From Dictyophora rubrovolvata (taxonomy: Eukaryota > Basidiomycota > Agaricomycetes > Phallales > Phallaceae), in contig CP114117.1 of NCBI GenBank assembly GCA_029959195.1, forward strand, positions 2,108,001 to 2,172,000: DNA of 64,000 nt. The letters run 5' to 3'. Made by a program: the position numbers and the translations under genes. The notes beneath the pieces are model-generated. The model was not told where the DNA came from. It did no database searches and worked only from the letters and a program-made list of their open reading frames with translations. Shown here piece after piece: positions 9,791 through 38,605 of this stretch. Each line of letters opens with the position of its first letter. The first letter of the stretch is position 1.

Positions 9791-9926
9791 TGTAACGATC
9801 TGTAGATAAAAGCTAAGTGTTGTAGCTAAATATACTATCGGAAAAACTATGAAGATATTTGTTTGAGGTTGTCTAGTCTCCATGGAGCAGGTCCTGGTGC
9901 TGATTTTGTGAAGAGGAAGTGGTGGG

Positions 9927-10463
9927 TGTTACGTACGGTGGTCCGCGGCTATCCCGGATATCTCTGAGAAAGTCCGGACCACTAGGGACGGGCAGGAGAT
10001 GGAGTACAGAAGTACGGGATGAGGGACTCGGCTTCAGCTTATAAGCTGCGCCCACTCGCCCAGCTTTATCTATCCCTCAATTTCAGAGTGGCAGGGACTT
10101 AGAGAGTACGAGATGAAACTAATAAAGCTGATATTCAGACTGAGGAACCCCAGCTGTAAGCTGGGGGTTTAAATACAGGGAGGAGTGGAACTATAGGAAT
10201 GGAGATAAGACAAAATAAGGAAAGGTAGCATATGGTTGAACACAGCTAGGGATGATGATTATAAAATCTTCATTCCTTATTACTAAGAGTCAGGGGCCGG
10301 TTTCCCCATAAGGAAGGTGATGGACTTGAAGTCTGGACGACGTCCGGACAGAGTACTGACAAGTACAGGATGGGATTGCTATGGAGATGTAAGGTGAGTA
10401 CAGAAATAACCGGAATGGGATCGGACTTCCAAATTAGGAAGGTGTGGCACGCGGAGTGTGACA
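9927..10463 (+). mobile_element. Solo LTR, type D, copy D1
   Basis: A 537-bp unit beginning TGTTACGTACGG and ending GGAGTGTGACA, flanked by a perfect 5-bp duplication GTGGG (9922-9926 and 10464-10468). TG...CA ends, 5-bp duplication and no internal ORF mark a solo LTR of a retrotransposon. It is nested in F1. Confidence 0.9.
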
Positions 10464-11106
10464 GTGGGGGATAATATGATATAATGAGTGTGTGAGTGTC
10501 AATATTAAACCAAACAACAATAACAAAATATAATGATCCTAAGATCTTGAGTATGTGAGGGGGGATGATGAATGTGGATTAGCAATGAAGTGACAACAAA
10601 TGTGTCGCTGATGATAAAACAGTGATAGAAATCTGTTAAGGTTAATAAGGCTTCAATAACAATACGAATCATCGAGTTTATACTCTGAGGCCTCACTCAG
10701 AGTAATCCAAAGAAATAGACATGAGCATAGAAATAGACTAGAGACAAAACTTGACTTGAACTTGACTTGACTTAGACTAAACTGTGAGACAACCGTTCCG
10801 GTAGATTGCTGCTGTTACACGTATTTACATGCAGTATTTATACCATTCTGAACAAAAGAAATATTTTTGGAGTTTGGGTGGCAACACAATTAGTAATTGT
10901 ATGCCAGATTTGTAAAGGAAAGAAGGAAATGAAGAATTGGATGGATAAATAGGGGAACAGATGAGTCAGCAAAGCTATACAATAATTATCCCAAAATTAG
11001 ACATCACCATCAATAAGCACTACACAGCCTCAAGATTGATTTCCATTCTTTTCCTCTAACCTCGGAAACGATGTGCATTTGCCACTGCCATATGTATACA
11101 TGTATT

Positions 11107-12055
11107 TTATTGTTGAACTCTTGTTAAAAGGCTCCAATCATATGAAACTAGAGGTCTATGTTCAAGATACTCAGGAAGTGGTTGGGACATATTGACCTCT
11201 AGTGGACAATAGGCAGGGGCAGGGTGATTGTTGATCACATTTGTGGATGCATCCATTAAAAGGAATTCATCATGATATAAAAGTGGTCGATGGAATACAA
11301 ACTGCCAAACAGATTGTTTGCTATGAATAAACTGGCAAATCCAAATCAATTCATATGAACATGCCAGTATATTGATACGGATTGTTTTGTTCATTTTTGA
11401 ATTCTCGGGGAATTCCAGTTTCTCATAGGGTACTGTCAGGGTATGCTAGCATCATCCCCTTATTTTCCTTCGTTTATCTTCGGTTCTGGTTTATTTTATT
11501 CATTTCCATATTTCTCGTATTTTATCCCATCTCCTGCATTCCCCCTTCCTTCCATATTCCCTTCTTTCCCTCCAACGGGCGCTCAGCGCCTGTTCCCATC
11601 AGAGCCATGGCCTAGGCCCCAGCTAAAGATCCGGGACCAGTGCATATCCACACCCAGTCCATGAACTGAAGGCCACGTATGGCCTTCGCTGTTTTTTCAT
11701 AGTATATAGTTAGTAGCTCTAGAGGAGGGATCCCTAAGTTTGTTCTCTTAGGATCCTCTCCCTCTAGGTGAGTTAGTATTTTTCCAAAATATATTTTACT
11801 TAGGATCCCCTCCCTCTAGTCTGAGTGAGTAGCCCTGACAGGTACCTGGTATTCCTGGATAGAGACCAGAGAAGGCAGCCATAATGTACTTTTATCTTCC
11901 TCGATGTTTGTGCCAGAGATACGATAGATCTGTATTGTTGATACAAAATTAGCATATTGTTTATCAGAAGTTATCCCAGTAAAAGGATAATAAGGATAAG
12001 GAAGGAAAGAAGTAGGGGCAAGTGATTCATAACCAAGAGGTAGCACAGAACTCAT
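11107..12055 (-). pseudogene. F1 reading frame split by an A LTR
   Basis: Minus-strand frame starting at 12055 (MSSVLPLGYESLAPTSF...) that reads into EYQVP at the A1 insertion point and continues on the other side as YEKLEFPENSKMNK and then ACSYELIWICQF, VWQFVFHRPLLYHDEFLLMD. The frame is kept across the insertion once one GGTAC copy is discounted, so the ORF was open when A1 landed. The second half aligns by eye with the segment before FLFIDAP in the F2 ORFs. Unknown function; no recognised domain. Confidence 0.6.
11434..11840 (+). mobile_element. Solo LTR, type A, copy A1
   Basis: A 407-bp unit from TGTCAGGGTATGCTAGC to GAGTAGCCCTGACA, with perfect 8-bp terminal inverted repeats TGTCAGGG/CCCTGACA and a perfect 5-bp duplication GGTAC (11429-11433, 11841-11845). 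Near the 3' end it contains the hairpin at about 11718-11769 shared with B and C LTRs. It is inserted in an F1 ORF. Confidence 0.93.
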
Positions 12056-12654
12056 GATGGGAGGGAAGGATAAGAAAGGATGAAATTAAATTTTTAAGCT
12101 CTGAAAAGAAAGGAAAAGAAACCACAAAAGGAAAGGAAACAAAAGATAAGAAGGCCCTTGTTTTATGTTTTTTATTTATTCCTGATGAGCCAAAAGGGGT
12201 TCTTCCTATAGCGTTAACCCAGATGTCTTAAATATAGCTGAACAGAATTTCCAAAGTCGATATAGCTTGGAGACAGTAGAACAGGAGTTGAAGGACGAAG
12301 AGAGGGTGACTAAGGTTCGGTGAGAGGATCAAAAGTGGAGATGGGAGGTTTAGAAGTCATGGGGATTTGTGGGATACCTGAATCATAGAATGGAAGGAAG
12401 AATTTGGGTTCTGATATGTGCATATGTTGATGATGGATCTATGAGCAAGGGATATCGAAAACAATATGCCAGAAAGCATGTCCATGTTCCACTATAGCCC
12501 ATATCCTAGTAACCGTTTCCAATAGACCTATGTGAATTGTATACATATTTACTACAACGAACCACTCTTCATATCCTTCTAATCATAAGCATGTTCCAAA
12601 GGAAACTTTCTTATCTCCTGCGTCTGAATATGAGATCAGATCCGAAGCTTTATG

Positions 12655-12873
12655 TTAACCAATAATAATAGGGTTCGGGTATAAAGGTAATAAGGTGGAG
12701 GGATTGAGGTTGAGGTGTGTATAGGATGTGTAGTAGATGTAGTATTGTGTGTTCAAATCGCAGAAATTGATATCAGGAGTAGGAGGGACAAAACGAAAAC
12801 AATGAGAGTCATCGATAGAAGGAGTGTGAAGAGAAGGCAGAGAATGAGAAGAGCGAATTTGGAATGAGGACAT
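12655..12873 (-). pseudogene. F1 second small ORF
   Basis: A 72-codon minus-strand frame with an ATG at 12873. It contains LNPSTLLPLYPNPIIIG, which resembles LDPTTLLPVYLP in the F2 ORF at 37785-38267, so it looks like a truncated relative of that ORF type. Between it and the frame at 12055 (12056-12654) I see only decayed sequence. Confidence 0.45.
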
Positions 12874-13036
12874 ATCTTTTGTATTGAGGTTTTTGGGATA
12901 ACAAAAAAATGTTTAGTCATAAGTTTTGGGTAGTTGCAAGGGTGAATTCAAGCTCTGAAGGACATATCGTGGGATTAGGGAATCTTCAGAATGTTTTTCC
13001 TTAATTCTTGCCAAATATAGATTTTGGTGCGCGACA

Positions 13037-14636: not shown

Positions 14637-15026
14637 GCATCATTAACCAAACATGATATGAATCCTGTAGGGCTAATTCCGACATAGAATAAACATGAGT
14701 AACTTGCTCACTGTAGACTTCTCTTCTGAAAGCCAGAAAGGGGTGTACAATATCTGAACTTCAACAGTTACAGATATCTCTGGGAACCTTGTGCAAGTAG
14801 ACTGGAAGTAGAGTTGTGGAGTCAATCTTGAGGATAGGAGTCAGTGAATAATAAGTGAACAGATTGTGACTATTGTGAGAATGACAAAATAATGAAGGGA
14901 TAACATCTTCTTCTAGGGATGGTTTTTGGGTGATTGGATGGAGTTGGAAGTTGATTATCCAGGAAGGATTTTGAATGTCCACTTTTGGACAAACAATCCA
15001 AATGAGGAAGATTTTGGTGTGTGACA
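14637..15026 (-). mobile_element. Family F fragment, copy F4
   Basis: Right-hand part of a family F element ending ATTTTGGTGTGTGACA. The minus strand encodes NLFTYYSLTPILKIDSTTLL followed by PVYLHKVPRD, closely related to the F2 frame at 37785-38267. It is truncated on its left by the C2 LTR, with no target duplication visible there. Confidence 0.7.
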
Positions 15027-15546: not shown

Positions 15547-16379
15547 TGTCATGCCCTGCTGTAATAATCTGAAAATAATATCTAAGTGTCATGGCTATAT
15601 ATATTATCAGAAAACTATGAAGATATTTGATAGTGAGGTCTTTTAGTCTCTGTGGAATGGATCCTGGTACTGAGTTCATAGAAGGGGAGAGATGAATGAT
15701 AATGTTAGGATGGGAGAGTGTGTGTATTAATGTCAAATCAACAACAAACACAACAACAACTACAATGATGCTATGATCTTGTGTGCAAGTGGGGGAGGGG
15801 GAGATATATGTAGACTGGCAATAAAATGGAATGACAATGAACAAAATGTCACTGACAATAAACAGTGATGGTAATTCTGTAAAAGTTAGCAAGGCTTCAA
15901 TGACAATATGAATTGCTGAGTTTATACTCCAAGGCCTCACTCAGAGTAATCCAAAGAAATAGATGTGGTGTAGAAAAAGACTAGAGATGAAACTTGACTT
16001 GAATATGACTTAAACTTGAGACAACTATCCAGTAGATTGCTGCTGTTATAAGTATTTATATGTAGTATTTATACCATTCAGAAGACATAGGAAAAAGTGA
16101 GATGACCACTCATCATTCACCATGATAACAAAAGAACCAAAGAAGGAGCATCACAAGAGAAAGATGGAGGATATAATTACATAGAATCAACAAGAGAAAT
16201 AGGAGAAATATGATGATAAAAAGGGAAACAAAAGAGAACAAAAGATATCAATCAGGCTCCTAACACAGCTTTATCAAATTCAACATCTGGCACTTCTTGC
16301 ACTGTTTCTTATCCAAAACCATAATCTCACCATCCTAAACTTCTTACCCTATCTATGGGATCATCTTCTTCATGGCCAT

Positions 16380-16870
16380 GGCACAATAATAAAAGCTAAA
16401 GCTGTGCTCAGTAACATCAGATCTTGAACCAGATTGGATTGGAGGTTGGCATAAGAAGGGAGAACTTGATATCCTTTGGAATAGTCAGGAAATGACAGAT
16501 AGAGTGTGTTGATGAATAGGAATTAAACATAGCTACAAAATTGGTGTCAAAAGACCAATCTTCAAATCAACTCCTCTTGATGATTGACAGAAAGGAACCC
16601 AATGAACTCATACAACTTATACATAATATTGATATACAAGGTCAGAGCTCATGGATATCCTAGCTCTAAATCATCATATGGTTTTCCATGGGGTGATAGG
16701 AAGCATGATAGAGGGATTGACATTGATTTCAGAGGCAAGGGAATTGTACACGTGAAGTCAGGTGAGAAAATTTGGGTTGGGACCAATTCACAGGGAAGAA
16801 TGAAATGGGAAAGACAGAGAGTTGTAAAATAGGGAACAGGGGAAGTAGAAAAATTGTTATTGTTCATCAT
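16380..16870 (-). pseudogene. F3 relic of ORF alpha
   Basis: Decayed counterpart of the F2 ORF at 36461-37006. The upper part keeps PYDDLELGYP; below it the segments EELI, RLVF, FLFI and DYSKGYQVLPSYA follow with stop codons between them. Its existence in the same place and orientation as in F2 shows that the ORF is part of the element. Confidence 0.55.
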
Positions 16871-16973
16871 GATGATAGGAATCTACCAAAGTTTTTAAGA
16901 GCACTAAAAAAAAATATCCAGGGAAAGAACAGTGATCTGATTGATAAGTGCTATCCAATCCAGAATTACCAGG

Positions 16974-17323
16974 TGTCACAGTATGCTAGCAACACTTAGT
17001 AGTATATCATTTGCCCCTTCCGTTTTCCCATATTCACATTCTTTTCATGTTCATTCTGTTTTTGCTCATTTTCTCATTCTCTTCATCTCTATCTGTTTCT
17101 CATTTTCAACTTGTTCCCACTCATTTCCACTCATTATCACCAGGGATCCCATGGGGATCAGTTGAGCACTTGTACTCACATATATATAGTTATTTTCCCT
17201 AGAGGAGGATCCCTAAGCTTTTTCTCTTAGGTTTTCCCTCCTCTAGGTGAGTAGCTAGTCATTCTCCATGAATAGATCTTAAGTTTTCCCTCCTCTAGGT
17301 GTGTGCCTGGAGTTGCCCTAACA
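16974..17323 (+). mobile_element. B-type LTR, copy B1
   Basis: A 350-bp unit from TGTCACAGTATGCTAGC to AGTTGCCCTAACA with the shared hairpin at 17198-17247 and a second CTTA(A)GTTTTCCCTCCTCTAGG copy near its end. The flanks CCAGG and CTTTT differ, so it is not a simple insertion; probably a recombination product. It separates the F3 alpha and beta relics. Confidence 0.8.
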
Positions 17324-17459
17324 CTTTTCCTTTATTCTATCCTGCACTGATTAGATCATGTTTCTGTTAAGATTTCCATAGGACAAATGTGATTACAATT
17401 AGTACATAGATGAGGTACAACAGGTTTTGGTGCATCATAGGCTGAGAGTGGAGTGGATG

Positions 17460-17790
17460 ATGAGGGGGTGGCTCTGGGATAGTATCTAAAGGTGTGTCCA
17501 AAAAGAGAACATAATTGTCATATAGAACTGCTCAGTAAGATGCCAAATCAGATTTCCAGGATGATGTGTCAAGAGGGCCCCAATCAGAGTGTGTATGATG
17601 CTTGCATGATAGGAATATGAATGCATTTGTCTACTCTGATCACTTCAGGCAGTTTCAGATCACTGTAAAAATAATGGAATTCAATTGCTGGATTTGAGTA
17701 ATGAGGCCATGGATCACCATCTTCTAATTCTACTATGTCACTCTTTACTCCATATTCATGAATTGTTGTCAGGAAGTTGGAAGTCTTCAT
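17460..17790 (-). pseudogene. F3 relic of ORF beta
   Basis: Counterpart of the F2 ORF at 37092-37628: shared segments are FLTT, ELEDGDPWP, FYSDLKLPEV, IPIMQASYTL and, after frameshifts, YVLFLDTPLDTIPEPP. It is broken by at least one frameshift after YTL. Confidence 0.55.
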
Positions 17791-18159
17791 GTCACCTATA
17801 TGGGATAAAAGGGTGTGGGGATGGTGTTGAGTGTGTGATAACCAATGGGTTGACCAGACATAATAGGAGATGAAAGAAAAAGAGAGGTGTCAAAAGAAAG
17901 AATTGGAGCTCTGAACCAAGAAGAAACCAGATAATTAAATAGAAGTAGGTATGTCCATATTTGTTATTTTTGTTCATTATTATATTTCAAAATTGATCAA
18001 GCTTGTTTCATTGAAGTGTGCGAATTGTTTGTTGATATTGGAGAGGGCATATTGTTAAATTGGAAGAAGTCAGGGATTGAGGAGGTGAATAATTATTGGA
18101 AGATAAGTTTGTTGGTTCCTTTGGAATGGGATTGGCAGGTCAATAGAATCCTAAGACTG

Positions 18160-18480
18160 GTTGGTGATTACATGTTGATAGGATCCACCAACTGGGAACA
18201 TCCAGGACCATTATCATGTATTCCAACCCAACTTGTGTTGTTAACCAAATATGGTACAAATCTTGTAGGGCTGATTCTGGTGTAGAATAAACATGAGTAA
18301 CTGTGAATGCCAAAAAGGGATGTAGGATATCTGAACTTCAATATTCTGGGAACCTTGTGCAAGTAGACTGGGAGTAGAGTCATGGAGTTGATTTCAAGAA
18401 TGGGAGTCAGTGAATAATAAGCAAATAGAGTAGTCTCAATATCCAGATCATGAGTATGAGGACTATCATGAGTATAACGA
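18160..18480 (-). pseudogene. F3 relic of ORF gamma
   Basis: Counterpart of the F2 frame at 37785-38267. It keeps TLLPVYLHKVP, and in other frames homologues of YSTRASALQDSY and WLTTQVGLEYM, so it is frameshifted. Confidence 0.5.
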
Positions 18481-19397
18481 AATAACAGAGGGATAACATC
18501 TTCTGAGATGGTTCTTAGGTGACTGGGGAAGAAGTGGGATTTTTGAATGTAAGCATAAGATGAGAGACAAAGGTTGAATATTTTATTGTTTGCTGAATGA
18601 GGGAATTTGGGTAAGTTGGAAGTCAGTTTTCTAGGAAGGATGGATTTGAATGTCTGCTTTCAGACAAGGAACCCAATTACCAAATAGGGAAGGTTTTGGT
18701 ATGTGATACTGCATGCCCCAATCCCAGACTTACCGAACTCCATACTCTATCATCTGTTCCACTCCCCCAACTCTGCACCCCATATTCTCATCCATACTCC
18801 ACATCACAGACTTTCCTTATGGGGAAGTTTGTTCTGATCAATTAGTAATAAGGTACCCAGATTATATCATATCGTCTCTGGCTTGCACTAGCCTATTTCC
18901 ACCTTTCCTTATTTGTTGTTATCCCCATTTCCATAGTTCTGCTCCCTCCTGTATTTAAACCCCAGCTCCCCAGCTGTAGATCCCCAGTCTGAATATAATC
19001 AGTTATCCTCTCATATTCTCATCCTGTATTGTGTAGTTGGCTCAAACCTAAGTTGACTCATACTTGTCATTCACATCATCTTTGACGACATGGACTTGTG
19101 CATACTCATGTACTTCCTCATACTCTGAAATTGAGAAATATCATAAGCTGGGTGAGTGGGCACAATATATAAGTTGAAGCCAAGTCCCTCACCCCATACT
19201 TCTGTACTCTGCTCTCTATCATCTCCAGTGGTCTGGACTTCTTCAGAACTATCTGGAATAGCCTTGGGCCACTATACATAATAATGATAATTGAAGTGAC
19301 AAAATGGTAGAGGTAGCTTCCAATGTCAGTAATCATGAAGAAGACATGTGGGATGCAGATAGCAATGGCAAATGGATCCTGTTGAATGGTCAGATAA

Positions 19398-20780: not shown

Positions 20781-21191
20781 TGTCAGGGTACGCTAGCGTT
20801 GTCCCCTTATTTTCCTACATTTATCTTTGGTTCTGGTCTATTTTATTTATTTCCATATTTCTCATATTTTATCCCATCTCTTGCGTTTCCCTCTCCTTCT
20901 GTATTCCCATTTTCCCTTCAACGGGTGCTGAGCACCTGTTCTCATCAGAGCCATGGCCTAGGCCCCGGCTAAAAGTCCAGGACCAGTGCGTACGCATCTG
21001 CGCCCAGTCCATGAACCAAAGGCCACGTGTGGCCTTCGCCGTTTTTCATAGTATATAGTTAGTAGTCCTAGAGGAGGGATCCCTAAGTTTGTTCTCTTAG
21101 GATCCCCTCCCCTCTAGGTGAGTTAGTATTATTCCTAGAATATATTTTGCGTAGGATCCCCTCCCTCTAGTCTGAGTGAGTAGCCCTGACA
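20781..21191 (+). mobile_element. Solo LTR, type A, copy A2
   Basis: 411 bp, TGTCAGGGTACGCTAGC to GTAGCCCTGACA, with a perfect 5-bp duplication CTAAC (20776-20780, 21192-21196). Same structure as A1, including the 3' hairpin. Confidence 0.93.
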
Positions 21192-23728: not shown

Positions 23729-25305
23729 CAGTAGCTCAAAAAAGTGTCCCAATGTTTTCTAAGTTTCCAGTAATATGGGAATAGCTCAGTAGAAGAAATC
23801 CTACAAATCACAAGAATATTTATAGTTTGAGTTTAACATACTGGCTATATTCTTATCAAGAAATTATGTACTTCTATCAATACATACCTGAGATATCTAA
23901 TTTATAAGATGTGGGGTCATTGGGACACTTTTTTGAGCAGGTACTTTTCAGTAATAGTTATAGAGAATATTAATCCTGTTACAATGAAAGGTGACTTGAA
24001 ATTTTCACACAGTATTACAGACTTGTTACATGATGGTTCCATAAGATAAAACATCTTTGTTTCCTACCTCCACTACCATGCAACCACTTCCTAATGCTGA
24101 TAAAGACAAAGTCATCTCTCATCTATTTTCTGGCAAATCTATCAGAGTCATATCTTCTCTAACTGGTGTTAGCAAGTCTACCATTGGTAGAATTGCCAAG
24201 GACATTGAAAGGGATAAAGAAATCCTCCCAATGGTCATCCATGTAAACTTTCTCCTGCTGACAAGTGGTGAATATCTTACAAAATCACATCTGGGGAGGT
24301 TGATAATGCTATTCAAGCTACTGGTTATATCAATTCCATAATTCCAAACCCAGTCTCTGCATAAACTGTCAGAAATTGCCTCAAAGAAAACAACTTCAAG
24401 GCAGTTGTCAAGGCCAAAAAATCTCTACTAAAGCAAGCTCATTGAAAGCATTAAATGATATTTGCTCTCTGTTATCAGAACTGGACTGTGGAGGACTGGA
24501 AGAGGGTTATTTGGTCAGATGAGACTAAAATCAATAGAATTGGGTCAGATGGACATCAATATGTCTGGAAAAAAATTGGAGAGTCTCATTCTGACCAGAC
24601 TACATCTATAACAGTCAAGTTTGGTGGTGGAAATCTTATGATATGGGGATGTTTTGGGTGGAATGGTATAGGGCATATTCAGGATATTGAAGGGAGGATG
24701 AACAGTGAACAGTACAGGGATATTCTGGACCAGCATCTGCTCCCCAGTATTGAAGAACTAGAAGTTCCCATGGATGAAGTTATCTTCCAGCAGGACAATG
24801 ATCCTAAACATACCTCAAAATTACTTCAAAAATGGTTTGAAGGTCATGATTTGGAACCAATGGAATGGCCTGCACAATCTCCAGACTTAAATCCAATTGA
24901 ACACCTATGGGAACATCTCAAGAGACAGCTTCACAAGTACCCAGATTTACCAAAGGGAGCTTGGGACTTATGGGACAGAATAAAATTAGAATGGGAGAAA
25001 ATAACCCTAGAAGTTTGTCAAAATCTCATTGAGAGTATGTCTAGGAGCAGTACTTAAGACTAAAGGGGGTCATACAAAGTACTAAAATGACACTGTACAT
25101 ACCCACTCAAAAAAGTGTCCCAATGATCTCGCCATCTTAGAAGTTAGATATCCAAGGTATGTATTGATGAAATTACATAATTTCTTGATAAAAATATAGC
25201 CAGTATGTTAAACTCAAACCATAAATATTTTTGTGATTTGTAGGATTTTCTCTACTGAGCTATTCCCATATTACTGGAAACTTAGAACACTTTTTTGAGC
25301 TACTG
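23729..25305 (+). mobile_element. Tc1/mariner-type DNA transposon
   Basis: 1577 bp inserted at a TA (23727-23728 and 25306-25307) ten bases inside the A3 LTR. Terminal inverted repeats are about 210 bp (23729-23940 and 25100-25305), starting CAGTAGCTCAAAAAAGTG on both sides. Each repeat also ends internally with an inverted copy of the outer motif (TGGGACACTTTTTTGAG at 23921 and its complement at 25106). It encodes a DD34E transposase that is now defective. Confidence 0.92.
24057..25090 (+). pseudogene. Tc1-like DD34E transposase, defective
   Basis: The N-terminal helix-turn-helix part reads DKDKVISHLFSGKSIRVISS and LTGVSKSTIGRIAKDIERD. The frame is lost near 24230, with stop codons around 24360 and 24445, and is open again in 24455-25057. 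The catalytic triad is visible: WSDETKI, QQDNDPKHTS and DLNPIEHLWEHLKR, with 34 residues between the second aspartate and the glutamate. The family C-terminus (AVLKTKGGHTKY) is present but in another frame after a small indel near 25040. Thus the catalytic residues survive while at least two frame breaks disable the gene. Confidence 0.88.
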
Positions 25306-30222: not shown

Positions 30223-31340
30223 GTGGTACCTTCAGACAATTGAATGCAGAGCAGTGCCACTCAGTCACTGGACTCTAGTGACAGCACTGCAAAAGCTGCA
30301 GGATTGATTCTTGCCAAAAGTAACAAAGCATGAGATAGCCTATCAATTTGATATGGCAAGGCAAGGAACACAATTGTTCATGAGTTCCTGAACGAGTTAT
30401 TGAAACTAGCCAACTGGCTAGCTCACCATCCAGACCCATACACCTTCAAAAGAAGGTTCATAAACGGTCTGAATCAGCAGATCACTAGTGAAGTCACCAA
30501 ATGTGGCTATACAGCTGAGACTTCCATGAAGGCAGAGCTTTACCAGATCACTAACAATGTTGAGTAATTGGTAAAGTACCAGTGACTACAATTGTTGCTA
30601 CATAACTCCAATCAAAGACCAATGAAACTGTCAGGGCTACTCACTCAGACTAGAGGGAGGGGATCCTAAGTAAAATATATTTTGGGAAAAATACTAACTT
30701 ACCTAGAGGGAGGGGATCCTAAGAGAACAAACTTAGGGATCCCTCCTCTAGGGCTACTAACTATATACTATGAAAAACAGTGAAGGTTGTATGCGGCCCT
30801 CGGTTTATGGACTGGGTGCAGATACAGGCCGGTCCCGGACTTTTAGCCGGGGCCTAGGCCATGGTGCTGATGGGAATGGGTGCTCAGCACCCATTGAAGA
30901 GAAGAATGGGAATACAGAAGGAAAGGGGAAAACAAGAGATGGGATAAAATACGAGAAATGTGGAAATGAATAAAATAGACAAGAACCAAAGATAAACGGA
31001 AGAAAAGAAGGGGACGACGCTAGCATACCCTGACAGAAACCCATTGGAAATACATCTACCAACTTGGTAAGAAGAGCACATTCTAATAACATGCGCCTAT
31101 AGTTGAAGACAATGACATTTGCTCCAAAGCAGAGTGAAGGGCAAGTAATGGGAAGTCCCTCATTACTGAGTAGACAAAACCCCTTGTCAATGAGGAGACT
31201 ACCCCTTGTCAATGAGGAGACTGCCCCAGGCAGCCAAACAATACTCCCAGAGCAAGTGTTTCCACTGCAGACAACTGGGACACTACTGGACCAACTGTCC
31301 TGAGCTGAGGTAAGTACAAGCCAATGTGGGTCGTATTGAA
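30223..31340 (+). pseudogene. Ty3/Gypsy gag remnant (capsid and zinc knuckle)
   Basis: Decayed Gag of a Ty3/Gypsy retrotransposon. Upstream of the A4 LTR the frame reads PDPYTFKRRFINGLNQQITS and CGYTAETSMKAELYQITNNV, a capsid-like segment. Beyond A4, at about 31254-31300, a CCHC zinc knuckle CFHCRQLGHYWTNC is intact. A 23-bp tandem duplication (CCCCTTGTCAATGAGGAGAC) lies at about 31179-31224. Multiple stops. The A4 LTR (30629-31035) splits it. Confidence 0.75.
30629..31035 (-). mobile_element. Solo LTR, type A, copy A4
   Basis: 407 bp in reverse orientation, TGTCAGGGCTACTCACTC to GCTAGCATACCCTGACA, with a perfect 5-bp duplication GAAAC (30624-30628, 31036-31040). It is inserted into the Gypsy gag remnant, so it is younger than that element. 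Confidence 0.93.
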
Positions 31341-35248: not shown

Positions 35249-35575
35249 GTCCATCCCATTCAACAATCTAGGAGTAAAGATTTCAACACTGACCTACTTA
35301 TTTATTGTGAGGCCTAACATCTCTTGGGACTTAGATTGATGATGTAATGATGTCATCATGTGAATGAGAGACTATCTACAATGAGAGAAAGAGAAATAGA
35401 AAAGCAAAAAAGACATATAAATTACTTTTATAAGTTTTATGATGTTTTTTTTGGTGGGAACCAGTTGTTACATGACAGTCTGCAAGTGTAACAGTTCCAC
35501 TTCTATAGCAGACGCATACCCTAGGGACTTAGGCATAAGTCCATTATACTACGACACGCGACTTAGCACGTGCGC
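35249..35575. other. Unassigned stretch before F2
   Basis: 327 bp, no ORF. A perfect 7-bp-stem hairpin GGACTTAGGCATAAGTCC lies at about 35525-35542, followed by a GC-rich ACGACACGCGACTTAGCACG patch that ends at the F2 insertion site. Confidence 0.4.
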
Positions 35576-36460
35576 TGTAATGATCCAAAGATAAAAGCTA
35601 AATGTTGTAGCTAAATATACAATCGGAAAAACTATGAAGATATTTGTTTGAGGTCATCTAGTCTCCGTGGAGTGGGTCCTGGTGCTGATTTCATGGAGAG
35701 GAGGGTGGGGGAATATAAGATATAGCGAGTGTGTGAGTGTCAATATCAAACCAAACAACAACAACAAAATATAATGATCCTAAGATCTTGAGTATGTGAG
35801 GGGGGGATGATGAATGTGGATTAGCAATGAAGTGACAACAAATGTGTTGCTGACGATAAAACAGTGATAGAAATCTGTTAAGGTTAATAAGGCTTCAACG
35901 ACAATACGAATCATTGAGTTTATACTCTGAGGCCTCACTCAGAGTAATCCAAAGAAATAGACGTGAGTGTAGAAATAAACTAGAGACAAAACTTGACTTG
36001 AACTTGACTTGACTTAGACTAAACTGTGAGACAACCGTTCCAGTAGATTGCTGCTGTTACAAGTATTTACATGTGGTATTTATACCATTCAAGAAACATA
36101 GCATAGGTGAGATGATCACTCATTGTTCACCAAGGTAACAAATAAAAACAAAACACACAACAAAAGAACAAAAAGAAAAAGGAGCATCGCAACAATTCGA
36201 TGGAGATATAATTACACAAGAATGAAATCACATATATTATCGGGGAGAATAGGAGAAATATGATGATGGAAGGGGGAACAAAAGGAGAACAAAACAAAAA
36301 CAAAACAAAAACAAAAAAGATTAAGAGGAAATGATGGCATTGAATCCTTGAGCATAGCTTTACCAAAATCAACATCTGGCACTTCCCGTGCTGCCTCTTC
36401 ACCTGAAATTGCATCGTTGCCTTCCTATTCTTCTGACTGATCTGGTTCTTGTCGATGGGA

Positions 36461-37006
36461 TCAGCTTCTCCATGGCTGTGGAGCAACAATAATGGCTATG
36501 GCTGTGTGTAAGAGCCTCAGATCTTGAACCTGATGGGACTGAATGTCGACATAAGATGGGAGAACTTGGAAACCTTTGGAATAATCAGGGGGAGAAGGAA
36601 TAGCGGAAATAGGAGCATCAATGAATAGAAATTGAGTATAACCATGAAATAGATGACAAAAAACTAGTCTCCAAACCAACTCTTCTTGACGATTGGTTGA
36701 AAGGATCTTGATGAACTCATATGATTCGCGCATGACATTGATGTTGGTATGTTCATACAGAGTTAGGGCTTCTGGATATCCTAGCTCCAGATCGTCATAG
36801 GGTAGAGTTAGTTCAATAACAGGGAGAAGATTAATTGGAAGCATGGTAGTGGGATCGACATCAATCTTGGAGGTGAAAGAATTGTATACACAAAGTTGGG
36901 AATTAACGTTTGGATTGGGACCAATTCTAAGAGAAGAACAAAACATAAAAGGGAAGAAGGGGAGTTGCAAATATGGAACAGAAGGAATGTAAGTGTTGTT
37001 GGACAT
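36461..37006 (-). CDS. F2 ORF alpha, 181-residue protein of unknown function
   Basis: Open from an ATG at 37006 to a stop at 36461. Contains IDVDPTTMLPINLLP, YDDLELGYPEALTLYEHTN, then YEFIKILSTNRQEELVWRLV and FLFIDAPISAIPSPP, followed by DYSKGFQVLPSYVD. The stretch up to FLFIDAP aligns by eye with ORF beta (IWQLIFHQAALYNDYVLFLD, APLDVIPEPP), so the two are probably paralogues. No signal peptide is evident and no known domain was recognised. It is the only one of the three F2 frames with an uncomplicated ATG start. It is part of the mobile element rather than a host gene. Confidence 0.5.
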   Translation of the reverse strand: MSNNTYIPSVPYLQLPFFPFMFCSSLRIGPNPNVNSQLCVYNSFTSKIDVDPTTMLPINLLPVIELTLPYDDLELGYPEALTLYEHTNINVMRESYEFIKILSTNRQEELVWRLVFCHLFHGYTQFLFIDAPISAIPSPPDYSKGFQVLPSYVDIQSHQVQDLRLLHTAIAIIVAPQPWRS

Positions 37007-37091
37007 CGCAATGAAGACCTTTTCTGAGCACTATCAGGATTCTTTCCAAAAGAACGATAAGGGATTATGATCTTGATCGATAAGCGCATTC

Positions 37092-37628
37092 CTAATTTTC
37101 CTCTATCCTTCTTCTTTGCCTCGGTCCAGTATCTTCAAGAAGTTCCATGGGACGAATACGAGCACGATGTAGGCAGGGTACGACAGGTCTAGGAGTATTA
37201 TAAGGTGGCGGTGGAGTGTCTGGATGATGAGAGGGTGGCTCTGGGATGACATCCAAGGGTGCATCCAAAAAGAGAACATAATCGTTGTATAGAGCTGCTT
37301 GATGGAAGATGAGTTGCCAAATCAGAATTCCAGTATGATGGGTCAAAAGATATCCGATCAGAGTATATGAAGCGTGCATGATAGGAATATCAACACTTTC
37401 ATCTATTTTGAGCACTTCGGGTAATCTCAAATCATCATAGAAATATTGGCATTCAATATCTGGCTTTGGAAGACAAGGCCATGGATCACCTTCTTCTAGT
37501 TCTATTGCGGTGCCTTGTAATTCATATTTGCGCATTGTCGTCAGGAAGTCTTCATGTCGTCTATGGAGGAGGTGAATTAAAGTCAGGATAATAAGGAGTG
37601 GGAATAGTGATGAGATTGTGATGCCCAA
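37092..37628 (-). CDS. F2 ORF beta, unknown function, start unresolved
   Basis: Open frame ending at 37092. The frame carries RRHEDFLTTMRKYELQG, IELEEGDPWPCLPKPDIECQ, YFYDDLRLPEVLKIDES, PIMHASYTLIGYLLTHHTGI, LIWQLIFHQAALYNDYVLFL and DAPLDVIPEPP, then a proline-rich and arginine-rich tail. The listed 5' limit (37628) is not an ATG. A short open frame (MSAYFHRLIGHHNL..., 37561-37670) precedes it and may be joined through a small intron or be a separate piece. The FLDAP...IPEPP segment is shared with alpha. Confidence 0.45.
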   Translation of the reverse strand: MGITISSLFPLLIILTLIHLLHRRHEDFLTTMRKYELQGTAIELEEGDPWPCLPKPDIECQYFYDDLRLPEVLKIDESVDIPIMHASYTLIGYLLTHHTGILIWQLIFHQAALYNDYVLFLDAPLDVIPEPPSHHPDTPPPPYNTPRPVVPCLHRARIRPMELLEDTGPRQRRRIEEN

Positions 37629-37784
37629 TCAGTCTATGGAAATAGGCAGACATAATAGGAAAGGGAGAGGAGGGATGATGAAAGTAGGAATTAGAGCTCT
37701 GAATCGGGAAGAAACTAGAGAATGAAACAAAAGAAAATATGTCCATATTCATTTTATTTGTTCTTTATTATACTCCAAAACTGT

Positions 37785-38267
37785 TCAAGCTTGTTCCAGG
37801 AAACTAGAACAGACTTGTCGAAGTGTGCAAAGGGTTTGTTGATATCGGGGAGGTCGTATGGTTAGATCAGATGAAGTTGGGGAATGAGGGGACGAAGGAT
37901 TATTGAAAGATGCTTTAGGTTCTTTGGGAATAGGATTTGCTGAGCGATAAAATCCTAAGGCTGGTTGGTGATTACATGTTGATAAGATCCACCAACTTGG
38001 AACGTTGAGGACCATTATCATGTATTCTAATCCAACTTGTGTCGTTAACCAAACACGATATGAATCTTGTAAGGCTGATGCTCGAGTAGAGTAAACATGT
38101 GTGACTGTAAACCATCTTAATTCCTGTTCGACATAAACTTCTCTTCCGAAGGCTATGAAGGGGTGTACAATATCTGAACTTCGACACTTATGAATATCTC
38201 GGGGAATCTCAGGCAAGTAAACTGGGAGGAGAGTCGTGGGATCAAGTTCGAGGATTGGAGTAGGCAA
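37785..38267 (-). CDS. F2 ORF gamma, unknown function, start unresolved
   Basis: Open frame ending at 37785 and extending upstream beyond 38267 without an obvious ATG (THDLDIETTLFTYYLPTPIL precedes ELDPTTLLPVYLPEIPRDI). Further down: FGREVYVEQELRWFTVTHVY, ALQDSYRVWLTTQVGLEYM. The DPTTLLPVYLP part resembles DVDPTTMLPINLLP of alpha and the relics in F1, F3 and F4. After SYRVWL it does not show the FLFIDAP block, so the C-terminal half may differ or be frameshifted. Confidence 0.45.
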   Translation of the reverse strand: MPTPILELDPTTLLPVYLPEIPRDIHKCRSSDIVHPFIAFGREVYVEQELRWFTVTHVYSTRASALQDSYRVWLTTQVGLEYMIMVLNVPSWWILSTCNHQPALGFYRSANPIPKEPKASFNNPSSPHSPTSSDLTIRPPRYQQTLCTLRQVCSSFLEQA

Positions 38268-38461
38268 GTAATAAGTGAATAAAGTTGTCTCAATATCCAG
38301 ATCGTGAGTGTGGGGACTATCGTGAGTATTTGAATATTTTATTATTTCTGAATGAAGGAATTTGGGTGGTTGGAAGTCGTTTATCCAGGAAGGGGAATTT
38401 GAATGTCCACTTTAGGAAGAACAACCTAAATACCAAATGGGGAAGATTTTGGTGTGCAATA

Positions 38462-38605
38462 GCACTATGTAGCCTGATTATGTAATAGTATGTAGGTGCT
38501 CTACACCATGTAAATACTGCTAGGCGGTAAAGGCGCTAGCAGTCTTTCTTACTGTTTACCTGTGAATATACAGTTTTCCACTGTTACCTTGTGAACCTGT
38601 AATGA
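38462..38605 (+). repeat. Repeat family I, copy 2
   Basis: Similar to 27016-27175. It is the sequence interrupted by F2 on its left side; it shares TAATAGTATGTAGGTGCTC, GTAAATACTGC and AGTCTTTCTTACTGTTTACC. Confidence 0.55.

Follow-up and report, generated by a model that had tools for sequence, protein, structure and literature searches.

The F units of Dictyophora rubrovolvata are very probably solo long terminal repeats (LTRs) of a Ty3/gypsy-like LTR retrotransposon that carries genes within its U3. The units have TGT/ACA tips and 4-bp NCGN-like duplications, one copy leads into a primer-binding site (PBS) and gag-pol, and the U3 open reading frames (ORFs) evolve as proteins.

Structure of the F units

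The window, the whole 64,000-nucleotide stretch that was analyzed, contains three F units with both ends. By eye, its gene content suggests a basidiomycete host. The features of F2 and its relatives are listed below.

35576..38461, minus strand: F2, very probable solo LTR; minus-strand reading TATTGCACACC...U3...TATA...R-U5...GGATCATTACA; flanks GCGC / GCAC
35572..35575, no strand: F2 target-site duplication copy GCGC
38462..38465, no strand: F2 target-site duplication copy GCAC, which differs from GCGC by a CpG transition
35576..36050, minus strand: R-U5 part of the F2 LTR, conserved between subfamilies; boundary approximate
36078..36084, minus strand: TATA-box-like TATAAAT, U3/R boundary region of F2; motif match only
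37788..38411, minus strand: ORF alpha in U3 of F2, 208 aa between stops; F2 lacks an early Met here
37095..37628, minus strand: ORF beta in U3 of F2, 178 aa stop to stop; probable gamma paralogue
36464..37006, minus strand: ORF gamma in U3 of F2, 181 aa from Met; probable beta paralogue; dN/dS about 0.2 versus F' gamma
9791..13036, minus strand: F1, very probable solo LTR from a different subfamily, with a U3 of type B and broken ORFs; flanking 4-mers GTGC/GCAC
About 9926-10464 and 11434-11840: two nested repeats in F1
15560..18708, minus strand: F3, very probable solo LTR and a relative of F2; flanking 4-mers CTGC/CTGC
18171-18659 (alpha) and 17587-17889 (beta): F3 ORFs, partly broken

The positions and tips of F1, F2, and F3 are those of the initial annotation, but its orientation of F was reversed. 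The other strand reads as a 2.25-2.9 kb LTR consisting of TGT, a long U3 with ORFs, TATA, R-U5, and ACA, and the U3 ORFs have the same sense as the retroelement. The TATA motif of F2 is ~500 bp from the U5 end. The LTR identity of F2 is taken from its relative L037, the copy with PBS-gag-pol.

The left part described as common to all three units is continuous over ~580 bp only between F2 and F3 (77.6% identity; F2 1646-2533 aligns at 74.2%). F1 has only this left part in common with F2, as segments of 136 bp (88%) and 386 bp (94.6%) split by a nested 537-bp repeat. The second nested repeat in F1 is 408 bp; each of the two resembles a solo LTR from an element other than F and has a duplication of about 5 bp. 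The three F2 ORFs are present on the minus strand (178-208 aa stop to stop); F3 alpha and beta are partly broken. The 4-bp duplications attributed to the three units are exact only for CTGC at F3. The F1 and F2 flanks are inexact, and their sole differences are C>T or G>A at the central CpG. One F fragment stops at position 15026 of the window.

An LTR followed by a primer-binding site and gag-pol

The sequence downstream of the L037 copy runs AAAG, PBS (TGGCTGCCCCAGTGAGGC), gag (755 aa), and PR-RT-RNaseH-integrase. This PBS matches two host tRNA genes over 15 encoded bases and, in addition, the CCA tail. A T-arm/acceptor pattern predicted from the PBS gave two exact matches and one 2-mismatch match in the genome, compared to none for the backwards control. 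Both exact matches are tRNAs by ARAGORN, which assigns L106 as Asn and L107, with an intron, as Ile or Asn depending on the settings. This PBS was seen by eye, for this tRNA's site only, in 1 of 97 U5-end flanks. The far flank of L037 is CCGC; it thus lacks a target-site duplication (TSD), as expected of a 5' LTR. Pfam identifies an aspartyl protease (below the cut-off), RVT_1, RNase H, H2C2, and rve in the pol of L046, the Ty3/gypsy order. The leader occurs a second time at C7 (90%), with an alpha-ORF fragment 7 bases ahead of it on the same strand. The AAAG after U5 is also present at the C6:440k copy (L070), and the flank at L017:8145 also begins A-TGG.

The absence of a visible mobility enzyme was correctly described for the F unit itself, but such enzymes are encoded by the parent element at other places in the genome. 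Among the three options that the initial annotation offered, the long ORF-bearing solo LTR is the best supported, with PBS-gag-pol following one copy.

Genome-wide copies and CpG-centered target sites

The genome contains 111 left ends (≤2 mismatches; backwards control 0) and 197 right ends (≤1 mismatch; backwards control 12). A same-strand right end was located at 2,250-2,294 bp for 34 of the 64 left ends examined. Thirteen distinct fetched F' copies show 2.0% divergence, or 0.9% outside CpG.

A preset test asked whether the duplications persist in a larger copy set, and they do. Thirty two-ended units were scored, 3 from the window and 27 fetched elsewhere in the genome. The flanks were identical in 14 and differed solely by transitions at the central CpG in 10, giving 24/30, compared to 1/30 identical for control 4-mers further out. 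The other six, L037 among them, lack a TSD under the rule used. Identity did not extend to 5 bp in any unit (0/30). The U5-end flanks (n = 97) were NCGN in 51, NTGN/NCAN in 43, and other in 3, including L037; the dinucleotide background of the window is 2.8% CG, 7.1% TG, and 7.0% CA. Two copies provide insertion-site evidence: the F unit of L017 sits within a pol gene, the overlap being 4 bp, and L036 is located inside the frame that encodes the C4 integrase.

F was also considered as the 3' or 5' LTR of an abundant chromovirus, as suggested by L011, where an integrase-chromodomain frame runs into F, and L010, where gag follows F. This reading was rejected. The units have their own TSDs (L011 ACAG/ACAG; L010 GCAC/GCAC; L012 CCGC/CCAC), and other copies of that pol diverge at the same point without F.

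Scarcity of internal regions

Clear gag sequences were found at three loci (C4, C6, and C7), and with weak relatives there are 16 matches in total versus 111 U5 ends. This solo ratio is extreme given how little the 13 F' copies differ. No internal region with an LTR on both sides was found among the genome copies. L031 (C1:568401-578000) was examined as a two-LTR element with LTRs 4.2 kb apart and rejected because its F copies differ in U3 type. The C4 element has a 5' LTR only, and its integrase, interrupted by L036, is soon followed by other sequence. Integrase is truncated in the sole 5'-LTR-bearing copy, where the chromodomain position (integrase C-terminus) is missing. A polypurine tract of 6 purines before the U3 tip had no exact match; a purine-run search with 1 mismatch gave 8 matches, all target-site-like, and the backwards control gave 1.

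Since neither an intact 3' LTR nor a polypurine tract was found, some probability, though a low one, stays with an LTR that spreads together with its genes as one unit, moved in trans by the integrase of its Ty3/gypsy parent to CpG-centered sites. Integrase takes both tips of an LTR as its substrates, so both ends of F could be used in this way, and young unit-length copies are numerous while internal regions are few. CpG-centered targets are also shared with Ginger1 (PMC2836005). However, LTR-LTR recombination leaves an identical footprint, 2.25-kb LTRs should recombine readily, and neither excision nor an intermediate was seen. If this reading were true, F would represent an extant intermediate form that links Ty3/gypsy LTRs to DNA transposons of the Ginger type, and its U3 genes would be cargo under selection.

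Less probable again is a nonautonomous Ginger-like DNA transposon, cut and pasted by a Gypsy-integrase-like transposase encoded elsewhere, an option that the initial annotation had raised. Ginger1 is described with TGTNR tips, 4-bp CCGG or CCGT/ACGG targets, and a Gypsy-integrase ancestry (PMC2836005). The TGT tips, 4-bp duplication, and CpG-centered targets of F, CCGT and ACGG included, recall these properties, and a single unit length is common (the 34 of 64 left ends above). The outer bases of the NCGN-like F target are wider than those of Ginger1. The comparison fails on the termini and the enzyme: Ginger1 has 40-270 bp terminal inverted repeats and its own transposase (PMC2836005), whereas Pfam shows no transposase in the F ORFs, and the two ends of F2, compared side by side, have no inverted repeat beyond their TGT/ACA tips. 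F is asymmetric in the manner of an LTR, with a long and variable U3, a TATA motif, and a conserved R-U5, and L037, with PBS and gag-pol but no TSD, suits an LTR rather than an insertion.

Apparent exchange of U3 between LTR subfamilies

F1 and F2 have R-U5 in common, the 386-bp segment at 94.6%, whereas their U3 regions lack detectable nucleotide similarity. Two U3 protein families are retained across LTR types whose U3 DNA is unalignable. From these alignments, U3 cassettes look to have been swapped between near-identical R-U5 regions.

Genes within U3

The U3 gene content is one alpha plus one or two beta/gamma ORFs. Alpha and beta each have at least 151 matches in the genome, many of them broken. 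The longest ORF in 300 shuffles of F2 averaged 107 aa (95th percentile 146, maximum 229), and against these values ORF length alone is suggestive of genes. Codon comparisons indicate that the U3 genes are under purifying selection between LTR subfamilies, with dN/dS about 0.17-0.5. The values were 0.20-0.23 for gamma A versus C, 0.20-0.21 for alpha A versus X, 0.17-0.19 for B2 L027 versus others, and 0.34-0.51 for alpha A versus C. The comparisons near 0.2 span 135-189 codons, and dS between subfamilies exceeds 1, which is near saturation. Most differences fall at third codon positions in 6/6 pairs. Close pairs gave high or erratic dN/dS (0.77-0.79 in three pairs and anywhere between 0 and 1.66 among F' copies), as expected of decaying copies. 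Alpha is intact in 5/13 and gamma in 7/13 F' copies, the others having stops, and nonsynonymous changes are weakly depleted within F'.

Alpha and beta/gamma are probably paralogues, and a shared origin is likely from profile comparison. The hhalign alignment of alpha with beta/gamma gave E = 5.7e-4 over 56 columns (probability 29.5%). A second run covered 211 columns with E = 0.0026, probability 4.6%, and a score of 17.1; the best of 100 column shuffles scored 10.9 and the reversed control 3.3. The strand order is almost alike in the predicted alpha and beta/gamma models, and phmmer gave no cross-matches between the two among the seeds.

Pfam searches at E up to 1 detected no family in five ORFs, three from F2 and two from the F' copy in L021. 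The U3-ORF protein sets A1 and A2 (15 members each) gave no credible Pfam family, only stray single matches to other families (E 0.059 and 0.098), and no match to PDB sequences at E up to 1. The Pfam collection includes a model for Sag, the protein encoded in the mouse mammary tumor virus (MMTV) LTR, and the U3 ORFs did not match Sag in Pfam or, for A1 and A2, in PDB sequences. Fold searches with Foldseek, at a cut-off of E = 0.001, gave nothing in PDB (both models) or BFVD (beta/gamma only). The predicted models are modest, with mean pLDDT of 66 and 57, core blocks mostly at 70-90, and tails below 50. These small, predicted beta-rich domains with low-confidence tails hint that the U3 products may be binding or regulatory accessory proteins rather than enzymes. 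The least probable reading, that the ORFs are open only by chance in an LTR that is poor in GC and decaying at CpG, is in keeping with the stops in many copies, the weak depletion within F', the shuffles that reach 229 aa, and the lack of family matches, but not with dN/dS about 0.2 between subfamilies, the third-position excess, two protein families that persist across unalignable U3 DNA, or the confidence of the predicted core blocks.

Proposed life cycle and comparison with known systems

We propose that transcription of the retroelement would start at the TATA box that lies close to the U5 end, that a host tRNA matching the L037 PBS would prime reverse transcription, and that integration would occur at CpG-centered sites. 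Recombination between the two long LTRs would remove the interior and leave a gene-bearing solo LTR, which would decay mainly through CpG deamination. The U3 genes would then be accessory genes of the retroelement, two sets per full element and one per solo LTR, with cassettes exchanged between R-U5 regions; counter-silencing and particle assembly are examples of possible roles. Because these genes would outlive element loss in solo LTRs, the genome would hold more than 100 accessory-gene loci and almost no retroelement.

F resembles Ty3/gypsy (Metaviridae) elements in the PR-RT-RNaseH-integrase order, the tRNA PBS after the 5' LTR, TG..CA tips, a short duplication, and solo LTRs. It differs in its 2.25-2.9 kb LTRs, a U3 that encodes two or three proteins, and the 4-bp NCGN-like target. 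No description of a fungal Ty3/gypsy element with two or three probable paralogues inside its LTR was found in a search that lay outside most subscription journals and Repbase.

The MMTV LTR with sag is about 1.3 kb and is described as exceptionally long because it encodes an accessory protein (PMC3026287). F shares the exceptionally long, gene-bearing LTR, but MMTV is a mouse retrovirus with one gene that gave no match, whereas F has two or three probable paralogues. In the Podospora element crapaud, variation lies mostly in U3 ahead of the TATA box and the 3' half of the LTR is conserved, with many solo LTRs and signs of inter-LTR gene conversion or recombination (PMC10787394). F is alike in all these respects. 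In contrast, the available portion of that account describes no U3 genes, and it reports 150 full copies among 1455 terminal repeats, compared to one partial 5'-LTR-bearing F-type copy. LTR retrotransposons of bdelloid rotifers also have additional accessory ORFs of variable types (PMC5408684); theirs is an ORF3 besides gag and pol, whereas the extra ORFs of F are within the LTR.

A copy of family F is linked to a gag-pol region

The three copies of family F in the window were confirmed at the positions reported in the initial annotation:
9791-13036, minus strand in LTR orientation, F1
15560-18708, minus strand in LTR orientation, F3
35576-38461, minus strand in LTR orientation, F2

The LTR anatomy considered in that annotation held when F was read on the opposite strand; its orientation did not. 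From U3 tip (right end) to U5 end (left end), F consists of a TGT tip, a long region with sense ORFs, a TATA motif (window 36084 in F2) and a conserved sequence of about 450-500 bp up to the ACA tip. A first impression that two F copies are the LTRs of a chromovirus was rejected; both have their own target-site duplications and are nested insertions.

The internal region was found at L037, a copy of the ~2.25-kb LTR subfamily F' on contig C4 and one of three left-end flanks that lack a target-like 4-mer. Its U5 end is followed by AAAG, TGGCTGCCCCAGTGAGGC and a 755-aa gag frame, which has a CCHC knuckle by eye and no gag family by Pfam. Downstream are a protease (below the Pfam cut-off) and Pfam matches to RT, RNase H, H2C2 and the integrase core. 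The tRNA predicted from this primer-binding site has TGCCCCA/TGGGGCA as its stem and GTGAG/CTCAC as its T-stem. Two exact copies of this pattern are present in the genome, along with a third at two mismatches (control 0); both exact copies are called as tRNAs, and the site matches 15 of their encoded bases as well as the CCA tail. On its far side L037 is flanked by CCGC, so the two flanks differ, which would be expected if L037 is a 5' LTR but not if it is a unit insertion. Another copy of the leader, on C7 (90% identity), has an alpha ORF fragment 7 bases upstream on the same strand; this is weaker support, since such nests often contain pieces of F. A truncated F at C6:439857-440010 also has AAAG after its U5 end, followed by CACTCG, and is a candidate for a second junction between LTR and internal region, one that would use another primer site.

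Genome copies and target duplications

A search of the whole genome (28.24 Mb, 11 contigs) with F2 gave at least 65 matches, 40 of 214 candidates being scored. Pattern searches located 111 left ends (up to two mismatches; backwards control 0) and 197 right ends (up to one mismatch; backwards control 12). A same-strand right end lies 2,250-2,294 bp from 34 of the 64 left ends checked. The bulk of these unit-length pairs seem to belong to F', and at least two (C2:2358804 and C2:2369112) carry a type-A-like alpha ORF (A being the F2 type) instead. Fourteen F' units were fetched, 13 of them distinct (L036 equals L037 in sequence). Pairwise identity is 96.8-100% among the 14, and the 13 distinct units differ by 2.0% on average, or 0.9% without CpG sites. 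Of the C>T/G>A changes, 149 in number, 109 fall at CpG sites; another 48 changes belong to other classes. F ends occupy exact mirror positions in C1 ~875500-900300. Their layout points to a ~25-kb palindrome with its centre near 887.9 kb, whether genuine or produced by the assembly.

Mirrored F ends on contig C1, from end patterns
875538, 883475 and 886051, minus strand, against 889737, 892313 and 900250, plus strand: right ends
883310, minus strand, against 892471, plus strand: left end

The 4-bp duplications described in the initial annotation persist in a larger sample of 30 two-ended units (3 window copies, 13 from larger loci and 14 F'). The 4-bp flanks are identical in 14; in 10 the sole difference is C>T at the second base or G>A at the third, and 6 differ otherwise. 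Control 4-mers farther out are identical in 1/30, and five-base flanks in 0/30. The middle dinucleotide of 97 left-end flanks is CG in 51, TG or CA in 43 and neither in 3; window frequencies are 2.8% (CG), 7.1% (TG) and 7.0% (CA). This is most naturally read as a target centred on CpG that deamination blurred afterwards.

Excess of single units

An intact 3' LTR was not found, and a six-purine run precedes a matching U3 tip in no case. The L037-type primer site was seen by eye in none of the other listed left-end flanks; the flank at L017:8145 also starts A-TGG. Gag matches total 16, with three clear loci (C4, C6, C7) and several weak ones. The RT-RNase H-integrase part has 96 matches: one close relative on C6 (86% over 190 aa), a group with 37-50% identity and a large number of distant ones. 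The excess of single F units is therefore extreme. Recombination between the 2.25-kb LTRs is a simple account of it. Movement of the F unit in trans as a single LTR would also yield single units and is rated improbable.

The C4 integrase is interrupted by L036, a solo F' flanked on either side by CCGA; past L036 the integrase frame resumes for a few codons and then gives way to unrelated sequence. L036 sits in the integrase gene of the same element that has L037 as its 5' LTR, and the two LTRs (C4 2490753-2501063) are 100% identical in opposite orientation, which may reflect gene conversion or very local insertion. F' units lie inside other gypsy-like genes as well, for example L032 (C2:733385-735651), where a pol is broken in two near residue 157. 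F' LTRs are found within or between parts of such genes at C2:732921-736895, C4:2490753-2498789 and C5:1067515-1073669. Either targeting or tolerated nested insertion would produce this arrangement.

U3 genes

The U3 encodes three ORFs (alpha, beta, gamma) in F2, two in F' and two in the F1-like type B, best seen in locus L031. Nine ORF seeds were sorted by phmmer into alpha (aA, aX, aC, B1) and beta/gamma (gA, bA, gC, bX, B2) groups, with no phmmer match between groups. Profile comparison gave E 5.7e-4 with a probability of only 29.5%; a second run gave E 0.0026, probability 4.6% and a score of 17.1, whereas 100 shuffles scored 10.9 at most. AlphaFold models of both groups have nearly the same strand order and a low-confidence C-terminal helix. 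These data suggest that the groups are related. At least 151 genome places match beta and at least 151 match alpha (each search scored 150 candidates, out of 177 and 228), many with stops.

Selection was estimated by the Nei-Gojobori method. Gamma of F2 versus F' and locus L012 gave dN about 0.25 and dS 1.1-1.3 (ratio 0.20-0.23). For alpha, dN/dS was 0.20-0.21 (A versus X), 0.34-0.51 (A versus C) and 0.25-0.49 (X versus C). F' versus L012 gave 0.26-0.31, B2 (L027) versus others 0.17-0.19, and beta 0.32-0.65. Close pairs reached 0.77-0.79 (alpha W versus L021 and one pair each of B1 and B2), and single F' pairs, with very few changes each, ranged from 0 to 1.66. The third codon position is the most divergent in 6/6 pairs tested. 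Within F', alpha has 25 non-synonymous, 20 synonymous and 5 stop changes (expected 34.0, 13.4 and 2.6), and gamma 23, 16 and 5 (expected 28.3, 13.1 and 2.6). Alpha is intact in 5 and gamma in 7 of the 13 distinct units. The ORFs within F' look to be evolving nearly neutrally. Given constraint between subfamilies and near-neutrality within F', the U3 genes were most likely selected while elements moved and decay once inserted. The R-U5 of F1 and F2 is 94.6% identical over 386 bp, and no nucleotide similarity was detected between their U3 regions at E 1e-6; this indicates exchange of U3 cassettes.

Pfam returned no family for the three F2 and two L021 ORFs at E up to 1, and only single matches (E 0.059 and 0.098) for 15 members of each protein alignment. 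A PDB sequence search with alpha and beta/gamma gave no match at E up to 1, and Foldseek with the AlphaFold models (mean pLDDT 66 and 57) gave none at E up to 0.001 (PDB for both, BFVD for beta/gamma only). On thin evidence, we favour non-enzymatic accessory proteins.

Known systems and neighboring repeats

The literature listings searched, with Repbase outside their scope, gave no evident match for ORFs lying within LTRs, whether of Ty3/gypsy or of fungal elements. In crapaud, variation lies mostly in U3 ahead of the TATA box, and 150 full copies are reported among 1455 terminal repeats, with signs of recombination (PMC10787394). The MMTV LTR owes its exceptional length to the encoded Sag (PMC3026287). 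In Ginger1 the tips are TGTNR and the duplications CCGG or CCGT/ACGG; unlike F, it has long terminal inverted repeats and its own transposase (PMC2836005).

A 408-bp repeat, TGTCAGGG...CCCTGACA, occurs at window 11434-11840, 20781-21191 and 30629-31035 and in fetched loci, and is full length in 33 of 56 matches (window and L009-L031). All three window copies are flanked by duplications of 5 bp (ggtac, ctaac and gtttc), unlike F with its 4 bp, and the repeat resembles a solo LTR from a different, abundant element. A 537-bp repeat, TGTTACG...GTGACA, is nested in F1 (window about 9926-10464) with a 5-bp duplication; it is full length in 5 of 14 matches (window and L009-L031). A 200-aa ORF at window 24455-25057 (plus strand) encodes a putative Tc1/mariner-type DDE transposase, recognized by eye.
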